Positions 28,173 to 50,654 of a stretch of 64,000 bases of DNA are shown here, piece after piece (the stretch's first letter is position 1; each line of letters opens with the position of its first letter). Both the position numbers and the translations under genes were made by a program. This stretch comes from Mesorhizobium sp. J8. GTDB taxonomy: Bacteria > Pseudomonadota > Alphaproteobacteria > Rhizobiales > Rhizobiaceae. The stretch is from assembly GCF_016591715.1 (NCBI RefSeq), contig NZ_AP024109.1, forward strand, positions 310,001-374,000, read 5' to 3'. Below the pieces are notes generated by a model, which worked only from the letters and a program-made list of their open reading frames with translations, searched no databases and was not told the DNA's origin.

Positions 28173-29477
28173 ATGGCAAAGACCGATATAGCGCGGCGCG
28201 TCTACAACCACACCTGGAAGCTGGACCCGATCGTCCGCAGCCTGCTGGACACCGACTTCTACAAGCTTCTGATGCTGCAGATGATCTGGGGCATGTATCC
28301 CAAGGTCGACGCCACCTTCTCCCTGATCAACCGCACCACTTCGGTGCGCCTGGCCGACGAGATCGACGAGGGGGAGCTGCGTGAGCAGCTCGACCATGCC
28401 CGCACCTTGCGCTTTTCCAAGAAGGAGATGATCTGGCTGGGCGGCAACACCTTCTACGGCCGCAAGCAGATCTTCGAGCCGGAATTCCTCGCCTGGCTCG
28501 AGGATTTCCGCCTGCCCGACTACGAGTTGTCCAGGCGCGACGGCCAGTTCGAGCTCTCCTTCGCCGGGCCCTGGATGTACACGACGCTCTGGGAAATCCC
28601 GGCTTTGGCCATCATCAACGAGCTGCGCTCGCGAGCGGCGATGCGCTCCTTCGGCCCGTTCACGCTCGACGTGCTCTACGCCCGCGCCAAGGCCAAGATG
28701 TGGGACAAGACCGAGCGGCTGAAGGCCTTGCCCGGCATCCGTATTTCCGACTTCGGCACAAGGCGCCGCCATTCGTTTCTGTGGCAGCGCTGGTGCGTCG
28801 AGGCGCTGAAGGAAGGCATCGGCGAAGCCTTCACCGGCACGTCCAACGTGCTTCTGGCCATGGACAACGACCTTGAGGCTTTGGGCACCAACGCGCATGA
28901 ACTGCCGATGGTCTTCGCGGCGCTCGCCAATTCCGAGGAGGAGCTGAGGCAGTCACCCTACAAGGTGCTGCAGGACTGGCAGCGCTACTATGGCGGCAAT
29001 CTGCTGATCGTGCTGCCCGACACGTTCGGTACGGCCGCGTTCCTGCGCGATGCGCCGGACTGGATCGCCGATTGGACAGGCTTCCGCCCCGACAGCGCGC
29101 CGCCGATCGAAGGCGGCGAGAAGATCCTCGCCTGGTGGCGCGAGAAGGGCAAGGATCCCAAGCAGAAGCTGCTCATCTTCTCCGACGGCCTGGAAGTCGA
29201 GACCATCGAGGAGACCTATCGTCACTTCAAGGGCAAGGTGCGCATGTCCTTCGGCTGGGGCACAAACCTCACCAACGATTTCGAGGGCTGCGCGCCGACC
29301 GAAACCAAGAGCCTCGACGCCATCTCGCTCGTCTGCAAGGTCAGCGAGGCCAATGGAAGGCCGGCGGTGAAGCTGTCGGACAACCCCGCCAAGGCGACGG
29401 GGGACGAGAAGGAGATCAAAAGATATCTCAGGATTTTCGGCGAGAAGGGGCGGGTGGAGCAACTGGTGAAGGTGTAG
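28173..29477 (+). CDS. pncB: Nicotinate phosphoribosyltransferase
   Basis: PncB makes nicotinate mononucleotide from nicotinate, PRPP and ATP in NAD salvage. The 434-residue length and the segments [16 protein letters not shown] near residue 30, [11 protein letters not shown] near 195 and [24 protein letters not shown] near 222 fit the bacterial enzyme well. It is followed 10 kb later by nicotinamidase and a probable nicotinate-degrading operon. No known NAD-regulator site was recognised upstream. Confidence 0.94.
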
Positions 29478-29550
29478 AGCGGTGGCGGTGATGTCCTCGC
29501 CTGGATCACCACCTGACGCCCATAACCCCGAAATGTTGAGCTCCCGCCCA

Positions 29551-29705
29551 CCCCCCTCTGTCCTGCCGGACATCTCCCCCGCAAGGGGGGAGATCGGATG
29601 TCGCCTCGGCCTTCGCCAATTTTCGACGTCGCAGAAAGAGGCGGTGCGCTCGAAGCTGCCAATCTCCCCCCTTGCGGGGGAGATGTCCGGCAGGACAGAG
29701 GGGGG
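29551..29705. repeat. Palindromic repeat, family A, perfect 44-bp arms
   Basis: Positions 29551-29594 and 29662-29705 are exact inverted copies of each other, 44 bases each, around a 67-base core. Each arm holds its own small hairpin (ATCTCCCCC and GGGGGGAGAT). The outer ends read CCCCCCTCTGTCCTGCCGG. A second copy lies at 52832-52991. The structure fits a non-autonomous palindromic repeat of the REP/BIME or MITE sort. Confidence 0.85.
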
Positions 29706-29706
29706 T

Positions 29707-31275: not shown

Positions 31276-32580
31276 ATGGCTGACAAGAACGGATTTTTCG
31301 ACCTCTCCAAGACGACGCTGTCGCGCCGCAGCGCGCTGAAGGGCATCGCCGCGGGCACCGGCCTTGCGCTGGCCCCCGGCTTCGTCCGCTACAGCCAGGC
31401 GCAGAGCTCGGCGCCCATCAGAATAGGCTTCCAGTCGCACCGCACCGGCATCGGCGCCGCCTATGGCCGCTGGTACGAGAGGACGAGCGCGGCCGCCGTC
31501 AAGGCGATCAACGACGCCGGCGGCATCGGCGGCCGCAAGGTCGAGCTGGTGATCGAAGATGACGGCACCGATCCGGCGCGCGGCGCCGAAGTGGTCAACA
31601 AATTCGCCAAGCAGCACAAGACCGACATCGTTTTCGGCACGCTTTTTTCGCATGTCGTGATCGGCTCGGCGCCGGCCGCCGGCGAGAACAAGATCCCCTA
31701 TTTCGTGGTCAGCGAAGGCCATCACGTCGCCTCCACCAAGCTCAACCGCTACGTCTTCCAGCCCGGCATCACCGATGTGAAGAGCCAGATCCAGTCGATG
31801 GCGCCGTGGATCGCTGCCAACGCCGGCAAGAAGGTGACGCAGATCTTCCCCGACTTCGCCTTCGGCTACGACCATCGCGACTACCTGCCGCCTGCGCTGA
31901 AGGCGCAGGGCGCCGACGTGATCGCCCAGATCGCCATCCCGCCGACGGAGTCGTCCTTCACGAAATACTTCCCGCAGATCCCGGCCGAGACCGAGGTGAT
32001 CTACCACGTCATGGTCGGCCCTGCCGTGCTCACCTTCGTCAAGGAGCTCGGCGAGTTCTACGGCTCGCAGCGACCGCAACTCTTCGGCTTCATCGATTCG
32101 CTCGAAGCCGTCGACATCAACAGCCCCGGCCTCGAATTCCTCGATGGCAGCCATTTCTGGGAAGGCTCGCCGCGCTATGCGCAGCCTGACGATTCCGCTG
32201 CGCAAAAAGCCTATCGCGCCGCCGTCGGCATCGACGACAATGGCGCCGCCGTCGGTGATCCCAAGGACGTCTCCACCGCAGCCCATATGTTCGGCTGCTG
32301 GGAAACGCTCTATGTCGTCAAGAAGGCGATGGAGGATGCCGGCTACAAGGGACCCGAGGACCGCGCCAAACTGATCGAGGCCACCGAGGCGTTGAAGGAA
32401 TTCGCCGAAGGGCCGGAGCATCCGCAGGGCCCGAAAACCTTCAACGGCAAGATCCACCAGTGCTTCGGCATCCAGAACATCTCCAAGATCGAAGGCGGCA
32501 AGCTCAAGGTCGTCCACAAGACCAAGATCGAAGACGGGCTCTACGAGCCGGAAGGGGATTACACGACGCAGGCGCTGTGA
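31276..32580 (+). CDS. Branched-chain-type ABC substrate-binding protein with Tat-like signal
   Basis: This 434-residue binding protein of the Leu/Ile/Val and urea/amide type starts with a twin-arginine-like leader (SRRSALKGIAAGTGLAL) ending near residue 42. The mature part opens IRIGFQSHRTGIGAAYG. Proteins of this group bind amino acids, amides, urea or aromatic acids. It heads a five-gene importer operon near nicotinate genes, so an aromatic or N-heterocyclic acid is a reasonable ligand. The permease gene follows after 16 bases, without a stem-loop. Confidence 0.87.
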   Translation: MADKNGFFDLSKTTLSRRSALKGIAAGTGLALAPGFVRYSQAQSSAPIRIGFQSHRTGIGAAYGRWYERTSAAAVKAINDAGGIGGRKVELVIEDDGTDPARGAEVVNKFAKQHKTDIVFGTLFSHVVIGSAPAAGENKIPYFVVSEGHHVASTKLNRYVFQPGITDVKSQIQSMAPWIAANAGKKVTQIFPDFAFGYDHRDYLPPALKAQGADVIAQIAIPPTESSFTKYFPQIPAETEVIYHVMVGPAVLTFVKELGEFYGSQRPQLFGFIDSLEAVDINSPGLEFLDGSHFWEGSPRYAQPDDSAAQKAYRAAVGIDDNGAAVGDPKDVSTAAHMFGCWETLYVVKKAMEDAGYKGPEDRAKLIEATEALKEFAEGPEHPQGPKTFNGKIHQCFGIQNISKIEGGKLKVVHKTKIEDGLYEPEGDYTTQAL

Positions 32581-32596
32581 GCTTGCCTCATAGCTG

Positions 32597-33478
32597 ATGC
32601 ACTTCGGACCCCACCTCCTCCTCGCCGCTCTCGAAGGCCTCGTCACTTCTGCGGTGCTGGCGCTGACGGCGCTTGGGCTGTCGCTGGTGTTCGGCGTCAT
32701 GCGCGTCGTCAACGTCGCGCATGGCGAGTTCTTCATGCTGGGCGCGGTGCTCGCCTGGGCGGTCTCGACGGCGATCTCCGGCCACCCGGCGATCGGCTTC
32801 GTGGCAGCACTTGTGATCGCGCCCTTGCTCGTCGGGCTGGTCGCGCTCGTCGCCGAGCGGCTGGTGTTGCGCCGGCTGAACTACAATCCCGAAGGCACCA
32901 TCGTCGCCACTATCGGCATGCTCTACATCATCCAGCAACTGGCGCTGACCTTCTACGGCCCCGAGGCGCGCCCGGTGGAGCCGCCCTTCAGCTACCGCAT
33001 CCTTTTGCCGTGGTTCGGCTATTCCGGCTACAAGCTGTCGGTGGTCGCCGCCTCCGCCATTCTGCTGGTGATCACCTGGCTGGTGCTGACCCGGACGAAA
33101 ATCGGCCTGATCATGCGCGCCACGCAATATGACCGCGAGACGGCGCAGGCCTTCGGCATTCCGGTCGAGCGCGTCTATGCCGGCGTCTTCGCCGTCGGCG
33201 CCATGCTGGCGGCGATCGCCGCGGTGCTGATAGTGCCGATCAGCCAGGCGCATTATCTGATGGGACAAGACCCGCTGCTGCTCTCCTTCATCGTCGTCAT
33301 CATCGGCGGACTCGGCTCGTTGCGCGGCACCATCGTCGCGGCGGTCCTGATCGGCCTCTCCGACGGCATCGTCTCGATGTTCTTCTCGCCGACGCTCGCC
33401 AAGATCATCGCCACGCTGGTCGTCGCCATGGTGCTGGTGTTCCGGCCGCAAGGCCTGTTCGGGACGACATCCAGATGA
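32597..33478 (+). CDS. Branched-chain-type ABC permease (LivH type)
   Basis: The 293-residue inner-membrane permease has the LivH pattern, with the motifs GLSLVFGVMRVVNVAHGEF near residue 30 and the late IIGGLGSLRGTIVAAVLIG. It forms the translocation pore with the LivM-type protein whose gene overlaps its stop as ATGA. Confidence 0.9.
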   Translation: MHFGPHLLLAALEGLVTSAVLALTALGLSLVFGVMRVVNVAHGEFFMLGAVLAWAVSTAISGHPAIGFVAALVIAPLLVGLVALVAERLVLRRLNYNPEGTIVATIGMLYIIQQLALTFYGPEARPVEPPFSYRILLPWFGYSGYKLSVVAASAILLVITWLVLTRTKIGLIMRATQYDRETAQAFGIPVERVYAGVFAVGAMLAAIAAVLIVPISQAHYLMGQDPLLLSFIVVIIGGLGSLRGTIVAAVLIGLSDGIVSMFFSPTLAKIIATLVVAMVLVFRPQGLFGTTSR

Positions 33479-34437
33479 GGGATGCTTCGCCGGCAAAGAC
33501 CTACGCCCTGCATATCGGCGTCATCGCGCTTCTGTTCGCGCTGAACTTCGTCCTGCCGGATTATCACCAGGGCCTGTTCGCCCGCATCATGGCGCTGGCC
33601 GTCTTCGCCATGGGCTACAACCTGCTCTTCGGCTATGTCGGCCTGCTCAGCCTCGGCCACGCCATGTTCTTCTCCGCCGGCCTGTACGGCGCCGGCCTGA
33701 CCATGTATCACCTCGGCTGGGGCGTTCCGGAAGCCTTCGTCGCCGGTATCGCCTGCGGCGCGCTGCTGGCCCTGGCCGTCGGCCTACTGGCGCTGCGCAC
33801 CTCGGGTGTCGCCTTCATGATCGTCACCATGATGTTCGCCCAGGTCTTCTATCTGCTTATCCTCTATTTCGCCGCCTGGACCGGCGGCGACCAGGGCCTC
33901 GTCATCCAGCAGGCGTCGCGGGTGGTCTCGATCGGCGGCGCCTCCTTCGACCTGACCGATCCAACCGTGCGCTACATGAGCGCGCTGGCGCTGTTCGCGG
34001 TCGTGCTGCTCATCACACTTGCCGTCGTCCGCTCCCGCTTCGGCCGTGTGCTGGTCGCGATCCGCGAGAACGAGGAACGGACCAGGATGCTGGGCTACGA
34101 CACGGTCGCCAACAAGCTTGCCGCGGTCGTCGCCTCCGGCGCCATCTGCGCTGCGTCCGGTGCTGCCTATGCCTTGCTGTTCGGCTATGTCGGATCGAAT
34201 TTCGCATCGATCCAGTATTCGATCCTGCCGCTGCTCTGGGTGCTGCTCGGGGGTGCCGCGACCACGCTCGGCCCGCTGGTCGGCACCCTGTTCATGTATT
34301 ATGTCACCGACATCACCAGCGGCTTCACCTCCGCCTATCTGCTGATCGTCGGCGTGGCGCTCATCCTGCTCGTCCTGTTCGCCCCGAAAGGCATTATGGG
34401 CAGCATCCGCGAGCGCTGGCTGGGGTGGCTGCCATGA
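33475..34437 (+). CDS. Branched-chain-type ABC permease (LivM type)
   Basis: This 320-residue permease shows the LivM layout of about eight membrane segments, with NLLFGYVGLLSLGHAMFF near residue 50 and the docking motif AIRENEERTRMLGYD near residue 198. Its start and stop both overlap neighbouring genes as ATGA, which indicates tight translational coupling within the importer operon. Confidence 0.9.
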   Translation: MRDASPAKTYALHIGVIALLFALNFVLPDYHQGLFARIMALAVFAMGYNLLFGYVGLLSLGHAMFFSAGLYGAGLTMYHLGWGVPEAFVAGIACGALLALAVGLLALRTSGVAFMIVTMMFAQVFYLLILYFAAWTGGDQGLVIQQASRVVSIGGASFDLTDPTVRYMSALALFAVVLLITLAVVRSRFGRVLVAIRENEERTRMLGYDTVANKLAAVVASGAICAASGAAYALLFGYVGSNFASIQYSILPLLWVLLGGAATTLGPLVGTLFMYYVTDITSGFTSAYLLIVGVALILLVLFAPKGIMGSIRERWLGWLP

Positions 34438-35162
34438 CGCCGCTGCTCACCACCAAGGGCCTGTCGCGCAATTTCGGCGGCTTGCGCGCCGTCGACGGCG
34501 TCGACTTCGCGCTGATGCCGGGCGAGATCCGCGCCGTCATCGGTCCCAATGGCGCCGGCAAGACCACTTTCGTCAGCCTGCTCTCGGGCCGCATCCGTCC
34601 GTCCTCCGGCAGGGTCGTCTTCGACGGCGCCGATATCACTGCCATGCCGGCTTACAAACGAGTTCGCCTCGGCGTCGCCTACACGTTCCAGATCACCAGC
34701 GTCTTTGCCAATCTCACGGCCTTCGACAATGTCGCGCTGCCGGTGCAACGCACGCTGACCGACGGCCGCTCGAAGGGGCAGGTCAGGACCGGCGTCATGG
34801 CGGCGCTCGAACGCACCGGCCTGGCCGACCGCGCCGGCACGCCGGCCGGGCAGCTTTCCTACGGACACCAGCGCCTGCTCGAAGTCGCGATGGGCCTGGC
34901 GCTGAAGCCGCGCCTGCTCATCCTCGACGAGCCGACACAAGGCCTGGCCGATAGCGAGATCGACAATTTCATCACGCTGGTGCGCGAGATCGCCAAGGAC
35001 GCAACGGTGCTTCTGATCGAGCACAACATGCCGGTGGTCATGCAGCTTGCCGACCGCATCACCGTCGTCAATTCGGGAAAGATCCTCGCCGAAGGTACGC
35101 CGGATGAGATCCGCGCCAACCGCCAAGTCCAGGACGCCTATCTCGGAGCGACCCATGGCTGA
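34434..35162 (+). CDS. Branched-chain-type ABC ATPase (LivG type)
   Basis: The 242-residue ATPase has Walker A GPNGAGKTTF near residue 37, the LivG-type signature QLSYGHQRLLEVAMGLA near 141, and Walker B LLILDEPTQGL near 162. The ATG at 34434 overlaps the LivM-type stop; the GTG nine bases earlier is less likely. Confidence 0.92.
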   Translation: MTPLLTTKGLSRNFGGLRAVDGVDFALMPGEIRAVIGPNGAGKTTFVSLLSGRIRPSSGRVVFDGADITAMPAYKRVRLGVAYTFQITSVFANLTAFDNVALPVQRTLTDGRSKGQVRTGVMAALERTGLADRAGTPAGQLSYGHQRLLEVAMGLALKPRLLILDEPTQGLADSEIDNFITLVREIAKDATVLLIEHNMPVVMQLADRITVVNSGKILAEGTPDEIRANRQVQDAYLGATHG

Positions 35163-35883
35163 CACCGTTGGAACCGATGGTGGATTGCTTGCCATCTCCG
35201 GCCTCGATTGCTTCTATGGCGAGGTGCAGGTGCTCTACGGTCTCGACCTGGCCTTGAACAAGGGCGAGGTGCTGTGTCTGTTCGGCCGCAACGGCGCCGG
35301 CAAGACGACGACGCTGAAGGCGATCATGGGTCTGGTGCCGGCAGCGGCCGGCTCGATCAAGCTGGACGGCAAGGAACTGACCGGCCTCGCCGCGCATGAC
35401 GTGCCGAAGGCCGGCGTCGCCTATGTACCCCAGGGCAGGCGGCTGTTCGCCGAGATGACGGTGGCGGAGAACATCGAGATCGGGCTGATGGCGCGCGGCA
35501 AGGGCAGAGAGGCGCGTGAAAACGTCCTCGATCTCTTCCCGTTGCTCAGGGAGCGGCTGAAGCAGCGCTCCGGCACGCTCTCCGGCGGCGAGCAGCAGAT
35601 GCTGGCCATGGCCCGCGCGCTCTGCCTCGAGCCGCAGGTGCTGCTACTCGACGAGCCGACCGAAGGATTGATGCCGTCGATGATCGCCAAGATCCGCGAG
35701 ACGGTGGCGAAGTTGCGCGAGCTCGGCGTCTCGACCATCCTGGTCGAGCAGCGTGTCGACGCCGTGCTGTCGGTGGCGGATCGTGTCTGCTTCATCGAGA
35801 ACGGCCGCAACCGCGAGACGGTCGATGTCGAGGCACTGCGGGCCGATCCGTCGGCGGTGCGAAGATATGTGGGTGTCGGTTAG
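35155..35883 (+). CDS. Branched-chain-type ABC ATPase (LivF type)
   Basis: This 242-residue ATPase has Walker A GRNGAGKTTT near residue 42, the signature TLSGGEQQMLAMARAL near 142 and Walker B LLLDEPTEGL. It works as a heterodimer with the LivG-type ATPase. The start at 35155 overlaps the previous gene by eight bases. Its stop codon overlaps the stop of the convergent antiporter gene, so no spacer is left between the two units. Confidence 0.92.
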   Translation: MADTVGTDGGLLAISGLDCFYGEVQVLYGLDLALNKGEVLCLFGRNGAGKTTTLKAIMGLVPAAAGSIKLDGKELTGLAAHDVPKAGVAYVPQGRRLFAEMTVAENIEIGLMARGKGREARENVLDLFPLLRERLKQRSGTLSGGEQQMLAMARALCLEPQVLLLDEPTEGLMPSMIAKIRETVAKLRELGVSTILVEQRVDAVLSVADRVCFIENGRNRETVDVEALRADPSAVRRYVGVG

Positions 35884-37298
35884 AAAAAAAGGAATCCCGC
35901 AATCAAAAACGTCGGGATCAGCACAAGGCCCGACCACGCCATGTAGCCGAAGAAGCCCGGCATCTTGAAGCCGCGATGCCTGGCGATGGCAAAGACCATG
36001 AAGTTCGGCGCGTTGCCGATATAGGTGTTGGCGCCCATGAACACCGCGCCGGCCGAGATCGCGGCAAGCGTCGAGGCGGTCTCCGTCATCAAGTGGCGCG
36101 CATCGCCGCCGGCCAGCTCGAAGAACACCAGATAGGTCGGCGCGTTGTCGAGGAAGGACGACAGCGCCCCGGTCAGCCAGAAATAGGCGAGGTCGTTGGG
36201 CTGGCCTTCCGTGGAGCTGACCAGCGCCACCAGCGGCGCCAGCGCGCCGTCCTGGCCGGCCCGCAGGATAGCGATGACCGGCACGATGCAGACGAAGATT
36301 CCGGCAAAGAGTTTCGCCACTTCGGCGATCGGCCCCCAGGTGAAGCCATTGGCCTCCCTGTGGCTCTTGTACGAGACCTTCAGCGACAGCAAGGCCAGCG
36401 CCAGGATGATGGCGTCGCGCACCAGGTTCTGCAGCTCGAGGCCAACGCCGAGGATCGGGACGCTGACGCCCGGTTTCCAGCTCGCCGAAAGCAGGATGGC
36501 GCCGATCACGCCGGCGAGCAACGGCAAATTGGCCAGGCCGCGCAGGCGCACCTTCGTGTCCGGCGTCGGGTCCTTGATCTTCGGCATGCCACCCTCCCGC
36601 CGATGCAGCACAGTGTCGAGCGCCAGGAAGACGATGAGCACCAGCCCGCCTGTGAACAGCGTCTCGCGCCACAGATTCGCGGTCGTCCAGAAGAAATCGA
36701 CGCCGCGCAGGAAGCCGACGAACAAGGGCGGGTCGCCGAGCGGCGTCAGCGAACCGCCTATGTTGGAGACCAGGAAGATGAAGAAGATGACCACATGGGC
36801 GTTGAACGGCCGGTTGTCGTTGGCGCGCAGCATCGGCCGGATCAGGATCATAGAGGCGCCGGTCGTGCCGATCACCGAGGCGAGCAGCGCGCCGATGAGC
36901 AGCAGGCCGGCATTGGTGAGCGGCGTGCCGTGGATGTTGCCGGCAAGCAGGATACCGCCCGAGATCGTGTAGAGCGCGAACAACAGGATGATGAAGGACA
37001 GATACTCGGTGAGCAGCGTGTGCAGCACCGCTTCGCCTGCGGTCGCGATGCCGAAGGCGACTGCCAGAGGAACCACGACCAGCGCCGCCCAGGCGGCGGC
37101 GATCTTGCCGTAGTGATGTTCCCAGACATGTTGGAAGAGCAGCGGTCCGGTGGCGATCGATAAAAGCAGGCCGGCGAAGGGCAACGCCCACCAGAGCGAC
37201 ATGGCGGCGCCCGGCAACTCATGGATTTCGGCGGCGAAAGCTTGTGCAGGAAGCAGCAGCGCGATCGCGAGCGCGGCAAATGCGAGACGCCCCCTCAT
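35880..37298 (-). CDS. Sodium/proton antiporter, NhaD-like (ion transporter superfamily)
   Basis: The 472-residue membrane protein has a cleavable-looking leader (MRGRLAFAALAIALLLPAQA), then about 11 membrane segments. The motif SNIGGSLTPLGDPPLF near residue 185 and the later SSFLDNAPTYLVFF are typical of NhaD-type antiporters. The ATG at 37298 lies inside the end of a palindromic repeat (CCGGATGAGGGG) and has no clear ribosome site. No later start keeps the leader. It is convergent with the importer operon; a functional link to it is not evident. Confidence 0.82.
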   Translation of the reverse strand: MRGRLAFAALAIALLLPAQAFAAEIHELPGAAMSLWWALPFAGLLLSIATGPLLFQHVWEHHYGKIAAAWAALVVVPLAVAFGIATAGEAVLHTLLTEYLSFIILLFALYTISGGILLAGNIHGTPLTNAGLLLIGALLASVIGTTGASMILIRPMLRANDNRPFNAHVVIFFIFLVSNIGGSLTPLGDPPLFVGFLRGVDFFWTTANLWRETLFTGGLVLIVFLALDTVLHRREGGMPKIKDPTPDTKVRLRGLANLPLLAGVIGAILLSASWKPGVSVPILGVGLELQNLVRDAIILALALLSLKVSYKSHREANGFTWGPIAEVAKLFAGIFVCIVPVIAILRAGQDGALAPLVALVSSTEGQPNDLAYFWLTGALSSFLDNAPTYLVFFELAGGDARHLMTETASTLAAISAGAVFMGANTYIGNAPNFMVFAIARHRGFKMPGFFGYMAWSGLVLIPTFLIAGFLFF

Positions 37299-37440
37299 CC
37301 GGCCGCTTCGCGGCCACCTTCTCCCCGGTGGGGAGAAGAGGCTGGCGCCAGCGCCGGCGACCTCCTCTCCCCTCGGGGAGAGGTCGGATTGCCCCGAATT
37401 GCTCTTCGCAATTCGGTTGGCAATCCGGGTGAGGGGGGCC
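37288..37440. repeat. Palindromic repeat, family B, large copy
   Basis: Several nested hairpins lie here: CCGGCCGCTT with its inverted GCGGCC partner, CTTCTCCCC with GGGGAGAAG, CCTCTCCCC with GGGGAGAGG, and GAATTGC with GCAATTC. The ends read CCCCTCATCCGG and GGGTGAGGGG. It fills the gap between the nicotinamidase and antiporter genes and carries the antiporter's apparent start codon. Confidence 0.8.
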
Positions 37441-37455
37441 TTCCCCACAGTCCGG

Positions 37456-38070: not shown

Positions 38071-38248
38071 GCGGCTTCCTCTCGTTTCGGCCCTGGTTCT
38101 ACCCCCTGGTTGGTTTGGGGGCTCCAGTCCAAAGCCGCTGACGCGACCGGAGAGGGAACCTTGACCAGATGGCCCGCGGCGTCAACCTCCGGCGCCATAA
38201 CAATCGCGTTCAGCTCTTCGCGGCGCCAACTCCGGCCCAACTCCGGCT

Positions 38249-38276
38249 TTGACAATTCCGAACGGCCTGATATCAT
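38249..38276 (+). promoter_or_regulatory. Promoter of the hydroxylase/reductase operon
   Basis: TTGACA at 38249-38254 and TATCAT at 38271-38276 are 16 bases apart and form the best promoter-like pair in the region, 117 bases before the first start codon. The -10 overlaps the candidate MarR operator. Confidence 0.6.
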
Positions 38277-38288
38277 TTGCATACGAAT
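38275..38288. promoter_or_regulatory. Candidate MarR operator, hydroxylase promoter
   Basis: ATTTGCATACGAAT is an imperfect palindrome. It matches the site at 50641 in 12 of 14 positions, and in 16 of 19 when the flanks are included. It covers the end of the -10 element, where a bound repressor would block transcription. The MarR gene at the end of the same operon is the natural candidate to bind it. Confidence 0.6.
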
Positions 38289-38392
38289 GAATTTGACCGG
38301 CCCGTGCGCCGGCAAGAACACCCGAAGCAGGCACTTCGGAGGGCCAGGGGAAGGCTCTTTTTCGGGAAGGCCAATTGTCTGGAAGGCAGAGC

Positions 38393-42045: not shown

Positions 42046-43580
42046 GCGAGCTTGCCGAACGTTTCGAAACTCACGATCCCGGCGAGAAGCAGGTGGCGGA
42101 GAAGATCCGCTGCGATGCCTGTCCGGTCATGTGCTACATCGCCGACGGCCGAACCGGCGCTTGCGACCGCTACGGCAATATCGGCGGCCGCATCGTGCGC
42201 ATGGACCCGCTGACCATCCTCGACCACGCGGCCGAGACCGGCGGCGCGGTCGTGCCGTTCGTCGCCGAAGGCGAAGCCTGGAGCGGCGAGCTGGTCAACA
42301 CCGGCCGCCGCTTCGTCACCGCGATCGGCGCCGGCACCACCTATCCCGATTACAAGCCGGCGCCCTTCATCGTCAGCCAGGAGGTCGAGGGCGTCGACCT
42401 CGTCACTGTCGTCACCGAAGGCATTTTTTCGTACTGCGGCGTCAAGGTGAAGATCGACACCGATCGCCATATCGGCGACGAGACGGCGACGGTGCGTTCC
42501 GAAGGCGAGGCGATCGGCCATGTCACGACAGGCGAATACGGCTCGCAGATGCTGTCGCTCGGCGGCGTGCATCACCTGACCGGCGGCTCGAAGGCGGAGG
42601 GGCGCGCCACCTGCGACGCGCTGCTCAATCTCTGCAACAGGAAGCCGGTCGAGCTCACCATCGATGGCGGCGCGACGGTCATCGTCGAAGCCGGCAAGGC
42701 GCCGGTCATCGACGGCAAGATCGAACACCGCATGCGCGTCGGCTGCGGCTCGGCCACCATCGGCATGTTCGCCACGCAATGGCGCGGTCTGGTCGATGAG
42801 GTGGTGGTGGTCGACGACCACATCACCGGCGTCGTCTCCGAACATCAGGCCGGCAAGGTTCTGGGCTGGGAGGACACCGGCATAAAGATCATCGGCCGCC
42901 GTTCTACGCCCGGCCGCTACTTCAAGGTCTCGGAGCCCGGCCTCGGCTGGGGCGGCACGACGATCTCCGACCCGCTGTCGATCCTTGGCGACTGGAACGC
43001 CAAGAAGGGCGCGCGCCCCGGCCTGTCGCTGCTGATGGTGTCGACCACCGGCGAGCAGTTCGCCTATTACGAGTTGGACGACGAGTTGAAGCCGGTCCAG
43101 AAGCCATTTCCAGAGCGGTTGCAAAAGTCGGTCGGCCTGATCGAGGACAATTGCGAGCCGGCGCTCTGCACGGTGCTGTTCATCGGCGGCGCCGGCGGCT
43201 CGCTCCGCGCCGGCGTCACCGAAAACCCCGTCAACCTCACCCGCTCGGTTCAGGGCTTGAAGACCTATGTGACCGTCGGCGGCGCGCCTGTTTATGTCTG
43301 GCCGGGCGGCGGCATCACGCTGATGGTCGACGTCACCCGCGTGCCGGAAGGCGCCTTCGGCTATGTGCCGACGCCGGCGCTGGTGGCGCCCATCGAGTTC
43401 ACCATGCGCCGCGACGACTATGTCCGGCTCGGCGGCTACGAGAATGAGATCCGCAGCGTCGAGGACATTCTCGCCAAGGGTGGCGAGTATCTAAACCCGC
43501 GCAGCAATACCGGCGCGCCGGCCGGCAATCCCTGGCCGCCGCTGGCGCAGTTGCGGCGCGCGGCGAACGGTGCCGGCTGA
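42042..43580 (+). CDS. 6-hydroxynicotinate reductase-like iron-sulfur protein
   Basis: This 512-residue protein resembles 6-hydroxynicotinate reductase, the ferredoxin-dependent enzyme that reduces 6-hydroxynicotinate to 1,4,5,6-tetrahydro-6-oxonicotinate in Eubacterium barkeri and, by pathway, in Azorhizobium. An N-terminal iron-sulfur motif is formed by Cys24, Cys27, Cys31 and Cys41 (CDACPVMC). Further conserved parts include [18 protein letters not shown] and the Gly-rich [13 protein letters not shown]. It overlaps its neighbours on both sides (ATGA, TGATG). The family is little studied and the exact substrate here is inferred. Confidence 0.8.
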
Positions 43581-44464
43581 TGAACGGCCCGCAGGCGCAT
43601 TGGCTTGCCGACGGCCGGCGACTCCATCTCAACCACGGGCCGATCGATCTGATCGTGGAGGCTTTTGGTGAGCCGGATGAGCGTCGCGCCGCCTACGAGC
43701 AGGCTGTCGCGCGCTTCCAGACGATCCTGATCGAGGTCGTCGAGGAACTGCCCGAGTTGCGCCTGCCGGCCTTCTTCCTGGCGCCGCGTGACTTCGCCGG
43801 CCCGACCGCCCGCCGTATGGAGGCCGCTGTCATGCCGCTGGCGGAATGCTTCATCACGCCGATGGCCGCCGTTGCCGGTTCGGTAGCCGACGAAATTCTC
43901 GGCGCCATGCTCGCCGGCCGGCGGCTCGACCGCGCCTATGTCAACAACGGCGGCGACTGCGCGCTCCATCTTGGCAGCGGCCGGTCGATGACGGTGGCGA
44001 TCGCCGGCACCGGGAATGGCATGGCCGATCGTGTCGGCATCCGCGCCGAGGATGGCGTTCGCGGTGTTGCCACCAGCGGCTGGCGCGGGCGGTCGTTTTC
44101 GCTGGGCATTGCCGATGCCGTCACCGTTTTAGCGCGCACCGGCGCCGAGGCCGACGCCGCGGCAACGCTGATTGCCAACGCCGTCGACCTGCCCGGTCAC
44201 CCTGCCATCGCGCGCGTTCCGGCGCGCGACCTCGCGCCCGACAGCGATCTGGGTGAGCAGCTGGTGACACAAAGCGTCGGCGCGCTTTCGCCCGACGAGG
44301 TTGCCCGGGCGCTGGACAAGGGCCTCGCGGTCGCCGAAGATTTTCGCCGGCGCGGCCTGATCGCCGCCTCGGCGCTGTTTCTGGCGGGCGAGGCCCGCAT
44401 CAGTGGCTCGGTGACGCTCGCTGCGCCCAACAAGCATGCACAGGAGGAATTTGCCGATGCCTGA
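43580..44464 (+). CDS. UPF0280 family protein (ApbE-superfamily-like)
   Basis: The 294-residue protein matches UPF0280/COG2122, a family grouped with the ApbE flavin-transferase superfamily but without a known reaction. Conserved parts are MAAVAGSVADEIL near residue 94, VNNGGDCALHL near 118 and ATSGWRGRSFSLGIADAVTVLA near 160. It is translationally coupled to the reductase upstream by a one-base overlap and overlaps the next gene by eight bases. A role in supplying or attaching a flavin to the hydroxylase or reductase would fit but is not shown. Confidence 0.82.
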   Translation: MNGPQAHWLADGRRLHLNHGPIDLIVEAFGEPDERRAAYEQAVARFQTILIEVVEELPELRLPAFFLAPRDFAGPTARRMEAAVMPLAECFITPMAAVAGSVADEILGAMLAGRRLDRAYVNNGGDCALHLGSGRSMTVAIAGTGNGMADRVGIRAEDGVRGVATSGWRGRSFSLGIADAVTVLARTGAEADAAATLIANAVDLPGHPAIARVPARDLAPDSDLGEQLVTQSVGALSPDEVARALDKGLAVAEDFRRRGLIAASALFLAGEARISGSVTLAAPNKHAQEEFADA

Positions 44465-45041
44465 GTTTCCGATCCGCAAGATCGCGGTGCTGAATGAGGA
44501 GATCTTCCACGAGGGCGGACCAGCGGCGAAGGAGCCGCGCCTGCGCGCCGCTGCCATGGCGCTTGTGAAGAATCCATTCGCCGGCCGTTATGTCGAGGAT
44601 CTGCAGGGCGCGATGGAAGACCTTAAGCCGCTCGGGCTTCTGCTGTCGGACAGGCTGATCGCGGCGCTCGGCGGCGACGTCAAGAAGATCGACGGCTACG
44701 GCAAGGGCGCCATCGTTGGCACGGCCGGCGAATTGGAGCATGGCGCGCTCTGGCACGTGCCGGGCGGCTACGCCATGCGCGAGCGTCTCGGCGACGCCAA
44801 GGCCATCGTGCCCTCGGCCAAGAAGGTCGGCGCGTTCGGGTCAAAGCTCGACGTGCCGCTCGGCCACATCAACGCCGCCTATGTCCGCAGCCATTTCGAC
44901 GCGATGGAAGTGGGCATCAGCGACGGCCCGCGTCCCGACGAGATCCTGTTCTGCCTCGCCATGACCTGCGGTCCGCGCGTCCACAACCGCATGGGCGGCC
45001 TGGCGGCAGAGGACATCAAGGCATGGGATGGCCTCAGATGA
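44457..45041 (+). CDS. AA_synth (amino acid synthesis) family protein
   Basis: This 194-residue protein belongs to the AA_synth family (PF06684), whose name is historical and whose function is unclear. Conserved parts are KNPFAGRYVEDL, GKGAIVGTAGELEHGALWH and AYVRSHFDAMEVGISDGPRPDEI. The start at 44457 follows AGGAGGAAT. The MarR gene begins within its stop. The position between reductase and regulator suggests a step after ring reduction, perhaps ring opening or isomerisation; this is inference. Confidence 0.82.
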   Translation: MPEFPIRKIAVLNEEIFHEGGPAAKEPRLRAAAMALVKNPFAGRYVEDLQGAMEDLKPLGLLLSDRLIAALGGDVKKIDGYGKGAIVGTAGELEHGALWHVPGGYAMRERLGDAKAIVPSAKKVGAFGSKLDVPLGHINAAYVRSHFDAMEVGISDGPRPDEILFCLAMTCGPRVHNRMGGLAAEDIKAWDGLR

Positions 45042-45499
45042 GCGGCGAGGACAATCTGCTGCGGCTGGTCGAGGCCGAGGATGGCGACGAGAACAACTAC
45101 CATCTGCAGGACCAGGTCGGATTCATCCTGCGCAAGGCGCATCAGCGCCATGTCTCGATCTTTGCCTCGCATATCGGCGACCTGACACCGCCGCAATTCG
45201 CTGCTTTGGCCAAGCTCTACGACATCGGCGAGACCTCCCAGAACCAGTTGGGAACGCTGATTGCCATGGACGCCGCAACCGTGAAGGGCGTCATCGACCG
45301 GCTGAAGGCGCGCGGCCTTGTCGAAGTCTCCAAGCACGAGGTCGACAAAAGGCGGCTGCTGGTCAATCTGACGCCGGAAGGCCGGGAGGCGATCGAGCGG
45401 TTGATCCCGCTCGCGCGCGCCATCACCGAGGAGACGCTGGCGCCGCTGACCGCCAAGGAAGTCGCGACATTCCTGCGACTGCTGGCAAAACTAGCTTAG
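45038..45499 (+). CDS. MarR-family transcriptional regulator
   Basis: The 153-residue protein has the MarR winged helix (residues 60-105, TSQNQLGTLIAMDAATVKGVI and the wing KHEVDKRRLLVNLT). It is the last gene of the hydroxylase/reductase operon, coupled by ATGA overlap, so it probably controls its own operon. MarR regulators govern nicotinate degradation elsewhere (BpsR of Bordetella responds to 6-hydroxynicotinate). The palindromes at 38275 and 50641 are candidate sites. Confidence 0.9.
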   Translation: MSGEDNLLRLVEAEDGDENNYHLQDQVGFILRKAHQRHVSIFASHIGDLTPPQFAALAKLYDIGETSQNQLGTLIAMDAATVKGVIDRLKARGLVEVSKHEVDKRRLLVNLTPEGREAIERLIPLARAITEETLAPLTAKEVATFLRLLAKLA

Positions 45500-45559: not shown

Positions 45560-46663
45560 TCAGGATGCGGCTTCGGCTACCGGCTTTGAGGACCATGCAC
45601 CCGTCACCCTCTTGCCGTCGCTGATGCTTGCGGTGCGCCGCCAGATCAAGGCCACGACCAGCATCGAAACGTAGCCGTCAGCAGCATAGTGCCAGCCTGT
45701 ATAGACCGAACCGAACAGGATGACGATCGCGAATGCCCAGCCTGCAATGCCGAGCCAGCGGTTGAGCCGCCCAAGGTAAAACGCATTCAGCGTGGCGACC
45801 GCCATATGCATGCTGGGCATGGCGGAAATCCCGGAACCAAGCGCCGGCATGTCGTTCTTATAGGTGGCAAGAAGGTAGCTGGAATAAGATAGGACGTGCT
45901 CGTTGGAGGGCCGCTGCTTCAACACGTCCAGAAGCTCGGCATAGCGATCGCCGCCCACCAATTCCTGGTAAAAGATCGGGCCGACGGAGGAAAACAACGT
46001 CGCCATGACCGTTCCGACCACCATAAACACAAGGGCCATCGCGGCGAGATACCGCAGGTGCACCGGCTGGTTGGCGAGTAGCGCTGCAAAAAACACCAAG
46101 CCGAACCATTCGAGAAACCAGAGTCTGGCATAGGTCACCGCTACGACCGTCGCCAGAAGGTCGGAGTCGAATGCGTGAGCGATGCGCCATGGCGCCTGAC
46201 CGTGCAGCAGTTCGCCGAAATCGGCCAGGGCTTTGTCGCAGTAAAAGGGGACGATGTCGGGTATGTTCACCTTGTAGGTCGTGAACGCGGAGAGCATCAG
46301 CATGAACATGATCACGACAATCGCCGCCCGCAGCCCATTGGTGCGGATCGACATTGCGATGAATGTGACCGGAGCCTTCGGCGACAGGGCAATCGCCATT
46401 GGGATCGCCACTGCCAGAAAGCTGAGCGGTCCAAAGACGAAAAGCCGCAGCAAGTACATCTCTGCCATCGCGGAATATGCCGACGGCCAGATCAGCGCCG
46501 CCATGGTGATATAGACCAGGCACAGCCCGAACAGCTTTTGCGGAACATTGCCCAATTCGGGGAAACGCGCGAGCCGACCAAGTTGCCATCGCGCACGGTC
46601 TGGTGAACTTGCACTCTCAAGTAAATCGTCGGATAGCTCCACGACCGTCCCCCGAAACGTCAT
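45560..46663 (-). CDS. PAP2-superfamily membrane phosphatase-like protein
   Basis: The 367-residue protein has about eight membrane segments and the PAP2 motifs SAMPSMHMA near residue 285 and GWHYAADGY near 326, in the form seen in the PAP2_3 / inositolphosphotransferase-like group. It may act on lipid phosphates or transfer a lipid head group. Base use is richer in A and T than in the flanking genes, and the 106-base upstream region is strongly AT-rich, so it may have been acquired separately. It splits the MarR-ended operon from the hyuBA pair. Confidence 0.8.
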   Translation of the reverse strand: MTFRGTVVELSDDLLESASSPDRARWQLGRLARFPELGNVPQKLFGLCLVYITMAALIWPSAYSAMAEMYLLRLFVFGPLSFLAVAIPMAIALSPKAPVTFIAMSIRTNGLRAAIVVIMFMLMLSAFTTYKVNIPDIVPFYCDKALADFGELLHGQAPWRIAHAFDSDLLATVVAVTYARLWFLEWFGLVFFAALLANQPVHLRYLAAMALVFMVVGTVMATLFSSVGPIFYQELVGGDRYAELLDVLKQRPSNEHVLSYSSYLLATYKNDMPALGSGISAMPSMHMAVATLNAFYLGRLNRWLGIAGWAFAIVILFGSVYTGWHYAADGYVSMLVVALIWRRTASISDGKRVTGAWSSKPVAEAAS

Positions 46664-46769: not shown

Positions 46770-48485
46770 CTATAGCCGGGGAGCGCCCGGCGGCGAAGAG
46801 ACAACTATGCCGAACATCTCCTCCGCCTGTTCGGATGTATAGTAGCCAAGTCGAATGTCTTCCGCGACCAGCTTCGGGTCGCGCTCGCGCGGGTCGCCAT
46901 AGCCGCCGCCGCCCGGCGTGCCGACGCGCACGCGGTCGCCGGCTTTCAGCGCGATGTCCTGTTCCTTGGAAAGATGCGGCGGCACATGCGCTTCGCCGTT
47001 CCGGAACACGGTCACGCTGTTCGGCGCGCCGTCCTTGCCGCCGAGCGCGCCCTGCGGGCCGAAGCGGCCGTGGTCCATGACGAAGGAAGCACGGGCCTCG
47101 CCGCGCAGGATTTCAACCTCATAGGCAAGCCCGAAGCCGCCGCGATGTTTTCCCGCGCCGCCGGAGCCTTCGCGCAGCGCGTAGTGCCGGTAGAGCACCG
47201 GAAACGCCTGCTCCATGATTTCGACCGGCGGCGATTTCGAAATGCCGATGGTCGAGCAGCCATTGCTCAAGCCGTCATGGCTGGCATTGCCGCCATAGCC
47301 GCCGCCGGAAATCTGGTACATGACATAGTCGCGCCCGCGCGCCGGATCGTTGCCGCCGAGCGCGAAATTCCCGCTGGAACCGGCGGGTGCGGCCGTCACC
47401 TTCTCCGGCAATGCCTGCACCATCGCCGCGAATACCGCCTCGGCGATGCGCTGTGAAACCTCCGCCGCGCAGCCCGAGACCGGCCGAGGATATTTCGCGT
47501 CGAGGAAGGTGCCCTCCGGCCGCTTGACGGTCAGCGGCTCGAAGGCGCCGGCGCTGATCGGCACCTCCGGGAAAATATGCCGCATGGCGAGATAGACCGA
47601 CGATAAGGTCGTCGCCAGCACGCTGTTCATCGGGCCTGCACATGGCTTCGACGAGCCGGCGAAATCGAAGGCCAGCGTGTCGCCTTTTTTCTCGACGGCG
47701 AGATTGATGGTCAGCGGCTCGTTCACCACGCCGTCGGAATCGACGAAGGCCTGAGAGCGGTAGGTACCGTCGGGTATGACGGCGATCGAGGCGCGCATCT
47801 GCTCGGCGGCGCGGCTGCGCAGCTCCGCGATCGCCTCGACGACGGTTTCGTCACCGTAACGATCCAGGATTTCGTTCAGCCTGTCCTGGCCAATCACCAA
47901 AGCCGCCGCCTGCGCGCGGATGTCGCCGATGCGCTGGTCGGCAACGCGGATGTTCGAGCAGATGATGGCGTAGATCTCGGGATCGAGCACGCCCTTCTTG
48001 AACAGTTTGACCGGCGGCAGCCTGAGCCCTTCCTGCTCGACGGCAGTGGCCGAAGCGGAGAAGCCGCCAGGCACCGAGCCGCCGATATCCGGCCAATGCC
48101 CGGTGTTGGAAAGCCAGCAAAAGATCTTGCCGCCGCGATAGACCGGCATGACGAAGCGCACATCCATCAGATGCGTCCCGCCGAGATAGGGATCGTTGAC
48201 GATGTAAATGTCGCCCGGCTCCGGTGCGAGGCAGCGACCGTCGGCGATCATCTCGATCACCATCCTGGTCGAATATTGCATGACGCCGACGAAGACCGGC
48301 AGGCCCTGGCTGCCTTGCGCGATCAGCGAGCCGTCGACGGCCGAGTAGATGCCGTCAGAGCGGTCGTTGGCTTCGGCGATGACCGGCGAGAAGGCCGCGC
48401 GCGAGAAGGTCAGGTCCATCTCGTCGCAGACCTGCTGCAGCGCCGCCTGCAGCACCGAAAGCGTGATCGTGTCGAGCGTGCTCAT
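46770..48485 (-). CDS. hyuB: Hydantoinase B/oxoprolinase family protein
   Basis: This 571-residue protein is the partner subunit of ATP-dependent hydantoinase/5-oxoprolinase enzymes, which open lactam or imide rings. Family segments include SPVIAEANDRSDGIYSAVDG near residue 35, GDIYIVNDPYLGGTHLMDV near 92 and the C-terminal VRVGTPGGGGYGDP. The start is one base after the hyuA stop. Given the nearby reductase that would make a cyclic lactam, ring opening of that product is a possible role; hydantoins or oxoproline are alternatives. Confidence 0.9.
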   Translation of the reverse strand: MSTLDTITLSVLQAALQQVCDEMDLTFSRAAFSPVIAEANDRSDGIYSAVDGSLIAQGSQGLPVFVGVMQYSTRMVIEMIADGRCLAPEPGDIYIVNDPYLGGTHLMDVRFVMPVYRGGKIFCWLSNTGHWPDIGGSVPGGFSASATAVEQEGLRLPPVKLFKKGVLDPEIYAIICSNIRVADQRIGDIRAQAAALVIGQDRLNEILDRYGDETVVEAIAELRSRAAEQMRASIAVIPDGTYRSQAFVDSDGVVNEPLTINLAVEKKGDTLAFDFAGSSKPCAGPMNSVLATTLSSVYLAMRHIFPEVPISAGAFEPLTVKRPEGTFLDAKYPRPVSGCAAEVSQRIAEAVFAAMVQALPEKVTAAPAGSSGNFALGGNDPARGRDYVMYQISGGGYGGNASHDGLSNGCSTIGISKSPPVEIMEQAFPVLYRHYALREGSGGAGKHRGGFGLAYEVEILRGEARASFVMDHGRFGPQGALGGKDGAPNSVTVFRNGEAHVPPHLSKEQDIALKAGDRVRVGTPGGGGYGDPRERDPKLVAEDIRLGYYTSEQAEEMFGIVVSSPPGAPRL

Positions 48486-48486
48486 C

Positions 48487-50559
48487 TCAGGCCTCGCCGA
48501 TGTCGATGATGATGTTGCCGTCGGCGTCCGAGCGCGCCCGGTCGCCGGGTTCGAGCACGGTGGTGGCGTCCATTTGTTCGAGGATCGCCGGCCCTTCGAT
48601 CACGGCGTCGAGCGGCAGCTTTTCGCGGGCATAAACCGGCGTGTCGTGCCAGGTGCCGTGATACCAAACCGGACGGATCTCCCGCCGCGCTTCCTCGAGC
48701 GTCGCCGCGCGTCCTGCCGGATCGATCAGCCGCGACAGGTCGATCTGCGGCCGCACGCCGGTGACCGAGGTGTTGAGGTTGACGAGGTTGGCGCGGATTT
48801 CCGGCAACTCGACCTTGAAGCGGGCGAAGTAAGCTTTTTCGAACAGAAGCTGCAGCGTTTCTCGTGAAACCGAGGACGACGGCAGCGGCACGTTGATGAT
48901 GTGTGTCTGGCCGACGAACTGCATGTCGGCCGAATGGGTGACGCGGATCGCGTCCGGCTTCACCGCTTCCTTGGCGATGAGCATCTCGCCTTCGTTACGG
49001 TGCCGTTCCAATACCTCGCGAAGCATGGCTTCGTCGAGCAGCTTCACTGGCTGGTTGATTGTGTTGACGAAGTCGTGCCGCAGATCCGCGACGACGCAGC
49101 CGAGCGCGTTGGTGATGCCCGGGCGCGCCGGCACCAGCACGCGCGGGAGGCCGAGCTCGCGGGCAAGCGCCGTCGCGTGCAGCGGTCCGGCGCCGCCGAA
49201 GGCGAACAGCGCGAAATCGCGTGGGTCATGGCCGCGCGACACCGAGACCATGCGGATCGCGCCCGCCATCTTCATGTTGCCGAGCCTGAGCACCGCGCCC
49301 GCCGCCTCGACGCCGGAAAGGCCGGTGCGCTTGCCGATCGTCTCTTCGAAAATGCCGGTGACGCGTTCGACGGTGACCGGATTGTCGACCGCGAGCAGCC
49401 TCTTCGGCGCCAGGCGCCCCAGCACGAGATTGGCGTCGGTGATCGTCGGCTGGGTGCCGCCGCGCCCGTAGCAGATCGGGCCGGGATTGGCGCCGGCGCT
49501 TTCCGGGCCTATCTGGATCAGCCCTGCTGCGTCGACCCGCGCGATCGAGCCGCCGCCGGCGCCGACCGTATGCACCGCCACCATCGGCACATGGATCGGC
49601 ATCGCATATTCGATCTCGATCTCGTTCGAGACGGCGGGTTCCGCATTGCGGATCAGCGCCACGTCGGTCGAGGTGCCGCCCATGTCGTAGGTGACGAGGT
49701 TGCCGAAGCCGGCGCGCTTGCCCGTATAGGCGGCGGCGATCACGCCCGAGGCCGGACCGGACATCACGGTCTTCGCCGATTCCAGCGTGACGAAGCGGGC
49801 TGAGATCATGCCACCATTGCCGTTCATGATCAGGAAGTCGCGGGCGTAGCCTTTCGCGCCGAGCTCTTTGCGCAGCCGCTCGACATAGCGCTCGAGGATC
49901 GGCTGCACGGAGGCGTTGACCGCTGCCGTCACGCCGCGCTCGAACTCGCGCGCTTCCGAAAGCAGCGCGTGTCCGGTGGTGATATGGCCGTTCGGCCAGA
50001 GCTCCGCCGCGATCTCCGCCGCCCGCCTTTCATGCGCTGGGTTGGCGTAGGAATGCAGGAAGTGGATGACCAGCGACTCGCAGCCGGCGTCGAGCAGCTT
50101 CTTCACCGCATCGCGCATCTCGGCTTCGTCGAGTTGAATGCGCACGGCGCCGGAAGCCTCGACCCGTTCCGACACTTCGAGCCGAAGGTCGCGGGGAATG
50201 ACGGGGACAAACGTACCCGTCATGCCATAGGCCTGCGGCCTCGTGCGGCGGCCAAGCTCGATCACGTCACGAAAGCCGCGCGTGGTGATCATGCCGGTCC
50301 GCGCCAGGCGGCGCTCCAGCACGGCGTTGGTCGTGGTCGTCGTGCCATGCACGATGAGGTCGATGCCGTCGATCGGAAAGCCGGTCGCGCCGAGCGCGGC
50401 GACCACGCCGAAGGCCTGGTTTTCCACCGTGGTCGGGGTCTTGGCGATATGGACCTTGCCGCCGGCCTTGCCATCTATCAAAAGCAGGTCGGTGAAGGTT
50501 CCGCCTACATCGATGCCAGCCACGACGCTTCCCGCCGACGCTGAAAATTTCTCATTCAT
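48487..50559 (-). CDS. hyuA: Hydantoinase A/oxoprolinase family protein
   Basis: The 690-residue protein is the ATP-binding subunit of the hydantoinase/5-oxoprolinase type. The N-terminal phosphate motif DVGGTFTD is at 17-24 and HGTTTTTNAVLERR near 72. The segments VTYDMGGTSTDVALI and AVHTVGAGGGSIA mark the second half of the ATPase core. ATP is used to activate a lactam carbonyl for hydrolysis. It is the first gene of a two-gene unit whose leader contains the palindrome shared with the hydroxylase promoter. Confidence 0.92.
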   Translation of the reverse strand: MNEKFSASAGSVVAGIDVGGTFTDLLLIDGKAGGKVHIAKTPTTVENQAFGVVAALGATGFPIDGIDLIVHGTTTTTNAVLERRLARTGMITTRGFRDVIELGRRTRPQAYGMTGTFVPVIPRDLRLEVSERVEASGAVRIQLDEAEMRDAVKKLLDAGCESLVIHFLHSYANPAHERRAAEIAAELWPNGHITTGHALLSEAREFERGVTAAVNASVQPILERYVERLRKELGAKGYARDFLIMNGNGGMISARFVTLESAKTVMSGPASGVIAAAYTGKRAGFGNLVTYDMGGTSTDVALIRNAEPAVSNEIEIEYAMPIHVPMVAVHTVGAGGGSIARVDAAGLIQIGPESAGANPGPICYGRGGTQPTITDANLVLGRLAPKRLLAVDNPVTVERVTGIFEETIGKRTGLSGVEAAGAVLRLGNMKMAGAIRMVSVSRGHDPRDFALFAFGGAGPLHATALARELGLPRVLVPARPGITNALGCVVADLRHDFVNTINQPVKLLDEAMLREVLERHRNEGEMLIAKEAVKPDAIRVTHSADMQFVGQTHIINVPLPSSSVSRETLQLLFEKAYFARFKVELPEIRANLVNLNTSVTGVRPQIDLSRLIDPAGRAATLEEARREIRPVWYHGTWHDTPVYAREKLPLDAVIEGPAILEQMDATTVLEPGDRARSDADGNIIIDIGEA

Positions 50560-50640
50560 TGCCGAAACCCGAAATACCAGGACTACGGATATGCCGCGGT
50601 TTGGAACCGCATTTTACGTCGCCATCTTGACCTCAAGATC

Positions 50641-50654
50641 ATTTGTATACTAAT
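50641..50654. promoter_or_regulatory. Candidate MarR operator upstream of hyuA
   Basis: ATTTGTATACTAAT lies 81 bases before the hyuA start and 127 bases before the ferredoxin reductase start. It is a near-palindrome centred on GTATAC and matches the site at 38275 in 12 of 14 bases. On the plus strand it would overlap a possible -10 (TAATAA) 18 bases after TTGACC, so either divergent gene might be the target. Confidence 0.55.

Follow-up and report, generated by a model that had tools for sequence, protein, structure and literature searches.

HyuAB as the likely ATP-driven substitute for enamidase in a MarR-associated nicotinate cluster of Mesorhizobium

In the nicotinate fermentation of E. barkeri, 6-hydroxynicotinate reductase (HNR) yields 1,4,5,6-tetrahydro-6-oxonicotinate (THON). 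A bifunctional enamidase then opens THON to (S)-2-formylglutarate (PMC9304392). A nicotinate degradation cluster is described in PMC3511419 for Azorhizobium caulinodans, Bradyrhizobium, Rhodopseudomonas and strain SG-6C. The HNR homologue of SG-6C matches E. barkeri Hnr at 42%, and the strain can live on either nicotinate or 6-hydroxynicotinate with no other carbon source. Here we describe a related cluster of Mesorhizobium sp. J8, on a 64-kb window (the whole stretch analysed, part of a 6.69-Mb single-contig genome) in which HNR lies next to a molybdenum (Mo) hydroxylase, UPF0280 and AA_synth, the arrangement that defines a reductive (THON) nicotinate cluster. The aerobic reductive pathway of the original prediction is not a novelty: the cluster of aerobic rhizobia, and so the core found here, was already in PMC3511419. 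The window differs from that published cluster in having hyuAB and fpr and in lacking an enamidase orthologue. Like E. barkeri, it would convert 6-hydroxynicotinate to THON and then open the ring hydrolytically; unlike E. barkeri, its host is aerobic and has no enamidase orthologue. We propose that hyuAB most likely replaces enamidase as ATP-driven opener of THON, hyuB and hyuA being the putative beta and alpha (ATPase) subunits of an ATP-dependent THON lactam hydrolase. The reading that we hold to be probable is a MarR-controlled nicotinate regulon for a known pathway, in which hyuAB, not homologous to enamidase, has taken its place.

HNR loci were collected with a 12-sequence alignment as query. 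The best 80 of at least 588 confirmed matches formed a first set, in which many fetched stretches end early at contig ends, and 52 further HNR loci a second. These 132 loci are 130 distinct ones (L122 duplicates L188 and L136 duplicates L195, each pair counted once; L157 has no HNR), and 102 (100 distinct) have flanks longer than 7.5 kb to either side. An amidohydrolase of family M38, about 399 aa long, is present in 14 second-set loci (two re-used from the first set) and matches PDB entry 2vun, ENAMIDASE, at E 2.9e-101. No enamidase match at E<=1e-30 was found among the 14 candidates scored in the Mesorhizobium genome. The original interpretation had overlooked this missing gene, the point that gives hyuAB its role, and holds only in part. 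Among the 100 distinct loci with full flanks, enamidase was detected in 14, hyuAB in 36 and both in none.

Complementary distribution was also observed in whole genomes. We searched 297 genomes of the order for five proteins (HNR, enamidase, hyuB, UPF0280 and AA_synth), with orthologue cut-offs of E<=1e-120 for enamidase, E<=1e-180 for hyuB and E<=1e-38 for AA_synth, scoring the best 6 (enamidase) and 4 (hyuB) first-look candidates per genome. HNR is present in 74 genomes. An enamidase orthologue occurs in 48 (42/74 with HNR versus 6/223 without) and a hyuB orthologue in 37 (34/74 versus 3/223). Enamidase only is found in 38 of the HNR genomes, hyuB only in 30, both in 4 and neither in 2 (G032 and G246, 89-90% complete and in 480-770 contigs). 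This exclusion has a Fisher p of 4e-14 by genome and 3.6e-4 by genus, the 32 HNR genera dividing into 19 with enamidase, 8 with hyuB, 4 with both and 1 with neither. Rescoring of up to 23 enamidase and 17 hyuB candidates in 79 HNR genomes (73 of the 74, without G183, plus 6 from a phylum search) agreed. When the states are mapped on a tree built from 67 HNR proteins (out of 80 HNR genomes), enamidase requires 7 changes and hyuB 8, compared with 22.6 and 20.8 in shuffles.

The HyuA-HyuB superfamily includes enzymes that open cyclic amides at the cost of ATP. The window proteins belong to it, with full-length Hydantoinase_A and Hydantoinase_B domains, and resemble CapAB, 5-oxoprolinase and N-methylhydantoinase in having both subunits; unlike CapAB, they are linked to HNR and fall far below the caprolactamase cut-offs (NF050156 and NF050157: 495.3 and 325.5 bits versus 1000). 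Their position within the cluster varies: hyuAB lies upstream of the FAD-subunit gene, with hyuB overlapping it (L171, L177, L182-L184), 8 bases after AA_synth (L161), or after an importer ATPase gene (L122, L129, L143). Gene starts in these comparisons, and in those of operator distance below, were extrapolated from tblastn. The possibility of ATP-driven ring opening, raised at the outset, is supported by the enamidase/hyuB distribution and by common operator-like sites. We found nothing in the open-licence literature that assigns hyuAB to nicotinate breakdown or connects UPF0280 and HNR, which does not prove priority. In three genomes of one genus (L213, L214, L215), fpr adjoins an enamidase gene unlinked from HNR, the reductase partner being again paired with a ring-opener.

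Several observations weigh against replacement, beginning with the caprolactamase shortfall just mentioned. Neither opener is within reach in 50 of the 100 full-flank loci, so that the case there rests on whole-genome orthologues. The Mesorhizobium genome has 24 Amidohydro_1 stretches, and another amidohydrolase could open the ring. Both openers are held by four HNR genomes: the hyuB match of G038 is 55% only, both matches of G098 are close (82% and 72%), and the enamidase of G209 and G248 (59-61%) sits in a different module, formed with AA_synth paralogues 1 (AAs1) and 2 (AAs2). Three hyuB-type genomes (G064, G159, G245) match at 56-58% only. Furthermore, the states cluster by lineage, 6 switches connecting the 62 rows that hold a single opener, and an independent-pairs test (n=7) gave 0 concordant and 2-5 opposed pairs, which is not significant (sign-test p 0.06-0.5). 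Replacement is well supported by distribution; it is not proven by repeated independent swaps.

Comparison of the intergenic regions of the window revealed a shared palindrome, between pncA and the FAD-subunit gene and between hyuA and fpr. With <=2 mismatches these are the only two sites in the 64 kb (3 listed matches, one site on both strands), where 0.23 matches are expected; three were reached in 0/100 shuffles. We then scanned 2.96 Mb of fetched loci with the consensus ATTNGTATACNAAT (12 fixed and two free positions), allowing <=1 mismatch, that is, at least 11 of the 12 fixed positions. This yielded 67 sites, 63 of them near the start of a pathway gene (from 400 bp upstream to 30 bp inside it): FAD subunit 31, pncA 26, fpr 17, hyuA 16, HNR 10, Mo hydroxylase 6, enamidase 5 and MarR 1, where a single site may count for two genes, one context is a duplicate and many loci are close relatives. 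The enamidase sites are from 5 loci, 4 of one genus, so that in some other genomes enamidase lies under the same kind of site. With <=2 mismatches, a site precedes hyuA in 22/45, FAD in 45/99 and enamidase in 9/31 loci. In two genomes of the window's genus (L220, L221), fpr-hyuA-hyuB is unlinked from the HNR cluster and the palindrome is kept there. Because hyuA/fpr and FAD/pncA share the site, hyuAB and fpr are linked to the nicotinate operon whatever the gene order. The cluster MarR is presumed to bind it.

Against such a regulon stand the circularity of the window statistic, the pattern having been derived from those two sites; the near absence of the palindrome (<=2 mismatches) before the importer binding protein (1/26 loci) and its absence before an alternative Mo hydroxylase (0/8); and the fact that MarR binding is something we infer. 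A further stretch, ACAATTCCGAACGG (one strand), is shared at 14 of 16 positions by the FAD upstream region (38248-38268) and the pncB promoter (28030-28180), either as a second regulatory site or by chance.

Each gene from the FAD subunit to MarR (FAD, Mo hydroxylase, HNR, UPF0280, AA_synth, MarR) overlaps the next by 1-29 bases, and the six therefore look like one transcription unit; pncA is divergent from this operon and has the operator-like site in common with it. The neighbourhood comparison called for by the original prediction confirmed conservation of the core: in the 80 first-set HNR loci we found UPF0280 in 79, Mo hydroxylase in 78, FAD in 69, AA_synth in 69 and the first importer permease in 53, followed by pncA in 36, hyuA in 20, hyuB in 19 and fpr in 18. 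Within the fetched stretch, fpr was also present in 15 of 55 loci fetched from the genomes of the second set; its product is a candidate electron donor chain for HNR. The HNR protein matched nothing in Pfam or NCBIfam at E<=0.001 (at E<=10 the sole match is a GCV_T_C stretch, below cut-off) and had no solved relative in a sequence search of the PDB (best E 0.66). Seven of its cysteines are retained in 52/52 aligned sequences and one more in 51/52, a CxxCxxxCx9C motif among them.

The pathway that we propose is read from sequence. The importer would bring in nicotinate, and PncA would convert nicotinamide; the Mo hydroxylase would then turn nicotinate into 6-hydroxynicotinate. NADPH electrons, passing via Fpr and presumably some ferredoxin to HNR as an iron-sulfur flavoenzyme, would reduce this to THON, after maturation of HNR by UPF0280, which would most likely place a covalently held flavin. 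HyuAB would open the THON lactam with ATP spent, in place of enamidase, and AA_synth would work on the ring-opened product, by deamination or decarboxylation of a 2-formylglutarate-type intermediate towards glutarate. What appears to be new is the variant in which HyuAB, sharing the operator, would stand in for enamidase, together with context-based roles for UPF0280 and AA_synth. Genes previously without assignment would thereby provide four testable ones: an ATP-dependent THON lactamase, an HNR maturation factor, a regulatory site, and a pathway in which to place PF06684. We think it rather unlikely that the boldest version holds in all its parts, namely HyuAB as a second, ATP-paid opener in aerobic rhizobia, exchanged repeatedly while one MarR-type operator was conserved, together with UPF0280 as a new class of flavin-attaching HNR maturase and AA_synth as a new 2-formyl-dicarboxylate enzyme family common to nicotinate and trigonelline breakdown.

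AA_synth belongs to PF06684, named 'amino acid synthesis', for which we know of no reaction. It occurs in 76 of the 297 genomes, 68/74 with HNR versus 8/223 without. Relative to the window copy, AAs1 proteins start at about 57% identity and AAs2 proteins lie at 46-52%; these labels, split at 53% identity, need 2 changes on a quick AA_synth tree. AAs2 is present at 14/14 enamidase loci versus 2/36 hyuAB loci. Eleven enamidase stretches (L202-L212) contain AAs1, AAs2 and enamidase with HNR not in the stretch (L212 additionally holds FAD, Mo hydroxylase and UPF0280), indicating that AA_synth goes with ring opening and not with HNR itself. The matched structures, 3byq and 2qtp, are of a family that, according to PMC2954203, folds like chorismate mutase and has no reaction assigned to it. 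PMC7913881 reports one homologue, HcdD, encoded next to a coumarin reductase, and a second, TgnF, from trigonelline breakdown; TgnF is said there to stimulate succinate semialdehyde oxidation, an effect not obtained with HcdD. We propose that paralogue 1 acts at or after ring opening. Trigonelline breakdown runs via a formylsuccinate-type intermediate and would share 2-formyl-dicarboxylate chemistry with nicotinate (2-formylglutarate), from which we guess, with low confidence, that AA_synth might be a decarboxylase, tautomerase or imine hydrolase at that step.

We propose that UPF0280 serves specifically to mature HNR and may attach the HNR flavin, because UPF0280 has an ApbE fold and tracks HNR almost perfectly: it occurs in 72 of the 297 genomes, 71/74 with HNR versus 1/223 without, the three misses (G120, G183, G224) being in 220-520 contigs each and the single extra (G185) coming from a genus that has HNR. 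The fold covers nearly the whole chain, and the residues GGD, ATSG and ADxxAT, retained in 54-56 of 56 sequences, are common to ApbE/Ftp FMN (flavin mononucleotide) transferase and the UPF0280 protein DVU1097 (2o34); L189, a remote relative within the family, reaches E 6.6e-4 against PF02424, which is below cut-off. Unlike ApbE/Ftp, the window protein has no PF02424 match up to E 10 and lacks the stretch around the ApbE His, which falls in an alignment gap. This lack counts against flavin transfer, and PMC5764234 cites the COG2122 homology as seemingly not reaching the flavin-binding region. It is quite possible, if not what we favour, that UPF0280 moves no flavin and performs iron-sulfur or persulfide chemistry on HNR, with its 8 conserved Cys, as suggested in PMC5764234 for COG2122, which with DUF39 and NIL/ferredoxin proteins is needed for homocysteine in Desulfovibrio. 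The ApbE fold and its retained residues argue for a flavin role. The HNR of E. barkeri is reported, in a 2006 abstract, to carry covalent flavin. The UPF0280/COG2122 requirement in homocysteine synthesis of a sulfate reducer (PMC5764234) means that its chemistry in a dispensable pathway could settle a wider question.

Ring opening by AA_synth itself, with hyuAB acting elsewhere in the regulon (on, say, an over-reduced lactam or other pyridine compound), would explain why AA_synth is near-universal in the cluster (69/80 loci) and hyuAB is not. The 7-hydroxycoumarin cluster of PMC7913881 likewise has an AA_synth family member and a lactone hydrolase not identified, though its authors favour the cupin HcdF. 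We judge this improbable: AA_synth also stands, often twice, beside enamidase, E. barkeri's own ring-opener (PMC9304392), and four hyuB-type HNR genomes have no AA_synth match (G004 and the three with a hyuB match of 56-58% only). Moreover, we know of no hydrolase signature in PF06684. That the true substrate is some other N-heterocycle, the cluster being a nicotinate cluster in name only, seems to us very improbable. HNR names are annotation transfers; nevertheless, enamidase orthologues acting on the HNR product, pncA and, at three loci, pncB recur alongside HNR, in keeping with the substrate class first suggested, as are pncA and pncB in the window, and cluster-bearing SG-6C grows on nicotinate and 6-hydroxynicotinate, as noted above from PMC3511419.

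Profile and homology searches found every gene from pncB to fpr in its expected place and order (Table 1). The earlier list had omitted the 546-aa membrane protein, the CitMHS_2 carrier and the PAP2 protein; pncA proved to be on the minus strand, and fpr extends just beyond the end given.

Table 1. Genes and operator-like sites of the nicotinate cluster, in window positions
Feature	Position	Strand	Basis and remarks
pncB, nicotinate phosphoribosyltransferase (salvage)	28173..29477	+	TIGR01514 301.2 bits, cut-off 269.55
Membrane protein, 546 aa	29482..31122	+	No Pfam family; after pncB
Branched-chain-type ABC importer, five genes (substrate-binding protein, 2 permeases, 2 ATPases)	31276..35883	+	PF13458, PF02653 x2, PF00005 x2
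CitMHS_2 carrier	35880..37448	-	PF16980 633 bits; between importer and pncA
pncA, nicotinamidase	37456..38070	-	NF008623 216.5 bits, cut-off 174
Palindrome ATTTGCATACGAAT	38275..38288	.	pncA/FAD intergenic region
FAD subunit of nicotinate hydroxylase	38375..39250	+	PF00941, PF03450; start codon uncertain
Fused [2Fe-2S] and molybdopterin subunit, nicotinate (6-)hydroxylase	39247..42045	+	MoCoBD_1/2, Fer2, Fer2_2
6-Hydroxynicotinate reductase (HNR)	42042..43580	+	Homology; best match 97%, Mesorhizobium protein of that name
UPF0280/COG2122 protein	43580..44464	+	NF003322 397 bits, cut-off 290
AA_synth paralogue 1	44436..45041	+	PF06684 234.4 bits, cut-off 27
MarR-type regulator	45023..45499	+	PF01047 47.6 bits, cut-off 24.6
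PAP2 protein	45560..46663	-	Between MarR and hyuB; in 4/80 HNR loci
hyuB	46770..48485	-	PF02538 E 1.1e-159
hyuA	48487..50559	-	PF01968, PF05378, PF19278; 7hk5 N-methylhydantoinase E 2.7e-124
Palindrome ATTTGTATACTAAT	50641..50654	.	Between hyuA and fpr
fpr, ferredoxin/flavodoxin-NADP reductase type	50782..51609	+	PF00175, PF00970; start at 50782 likely

The tie of pncB, at the cluster edge, to the pathway is loose; a homologue (71-72%) likewise lies upstream of HNR in L148, L151 and L194. The ATP-binding cassette (ABC) importer probably serves uptake of nicotinate or 6-hydroxynicotinate. The Mo hydroxylase matches nicotinate dehydrogenase 3hrd chain A at E 1.8e-79 and is matched still better by aldehyde oxidoreductases. 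The CitMHS_2 carrier (PF16980) recurs in 21 of the 80 HNR loci.

An alternative molybdenum enzyme replaces the nicotinate hydroxylase in L148, L151, L155 and L190-L194, all of one genus that we guess to be Bradyrhizobium. Its pieces are 24-43% identical to the window Mo hydroxylase, and it lies on the strand opposite to HNR. The same genus has AA_synth paralogue 2, with enamidase in the stretch of 5 of the 8 fetched loci.

The separate AAs1-AAs2-enamidase module was found in L202-L205 and L207-L210 (e.g. L205:5757-12458), near a PnrA-like (Bmp) nucleoside-type importer and inosine-uridine nucleoside hydrolases and with a MarR gene, several with an isochorismatase-type hydrolase as well. It is also present in HNR-less genomes of the genus that includes Kaistia. 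We guess at a pyridine nucleoside pathway, possibly for damaged nicotinamide riboside. The Mesorhizobium genome itself has a second AA_synth copy (34-38% identity; L198, C1:4964000-4983900) near a luciferase-like monooxygenase, a flavin reductase, an aldehyde dehydrogenase and a PucR-type regulator, a locus that we take to resemble trigonelline-type clusters with a two-component ring-cleaving oxygenase. Upstream of the nicotinate cluster, the window carries an arginase-family gene (25748-26953) preceded by an amino-acid ABC importer, apparently unrelated to it.

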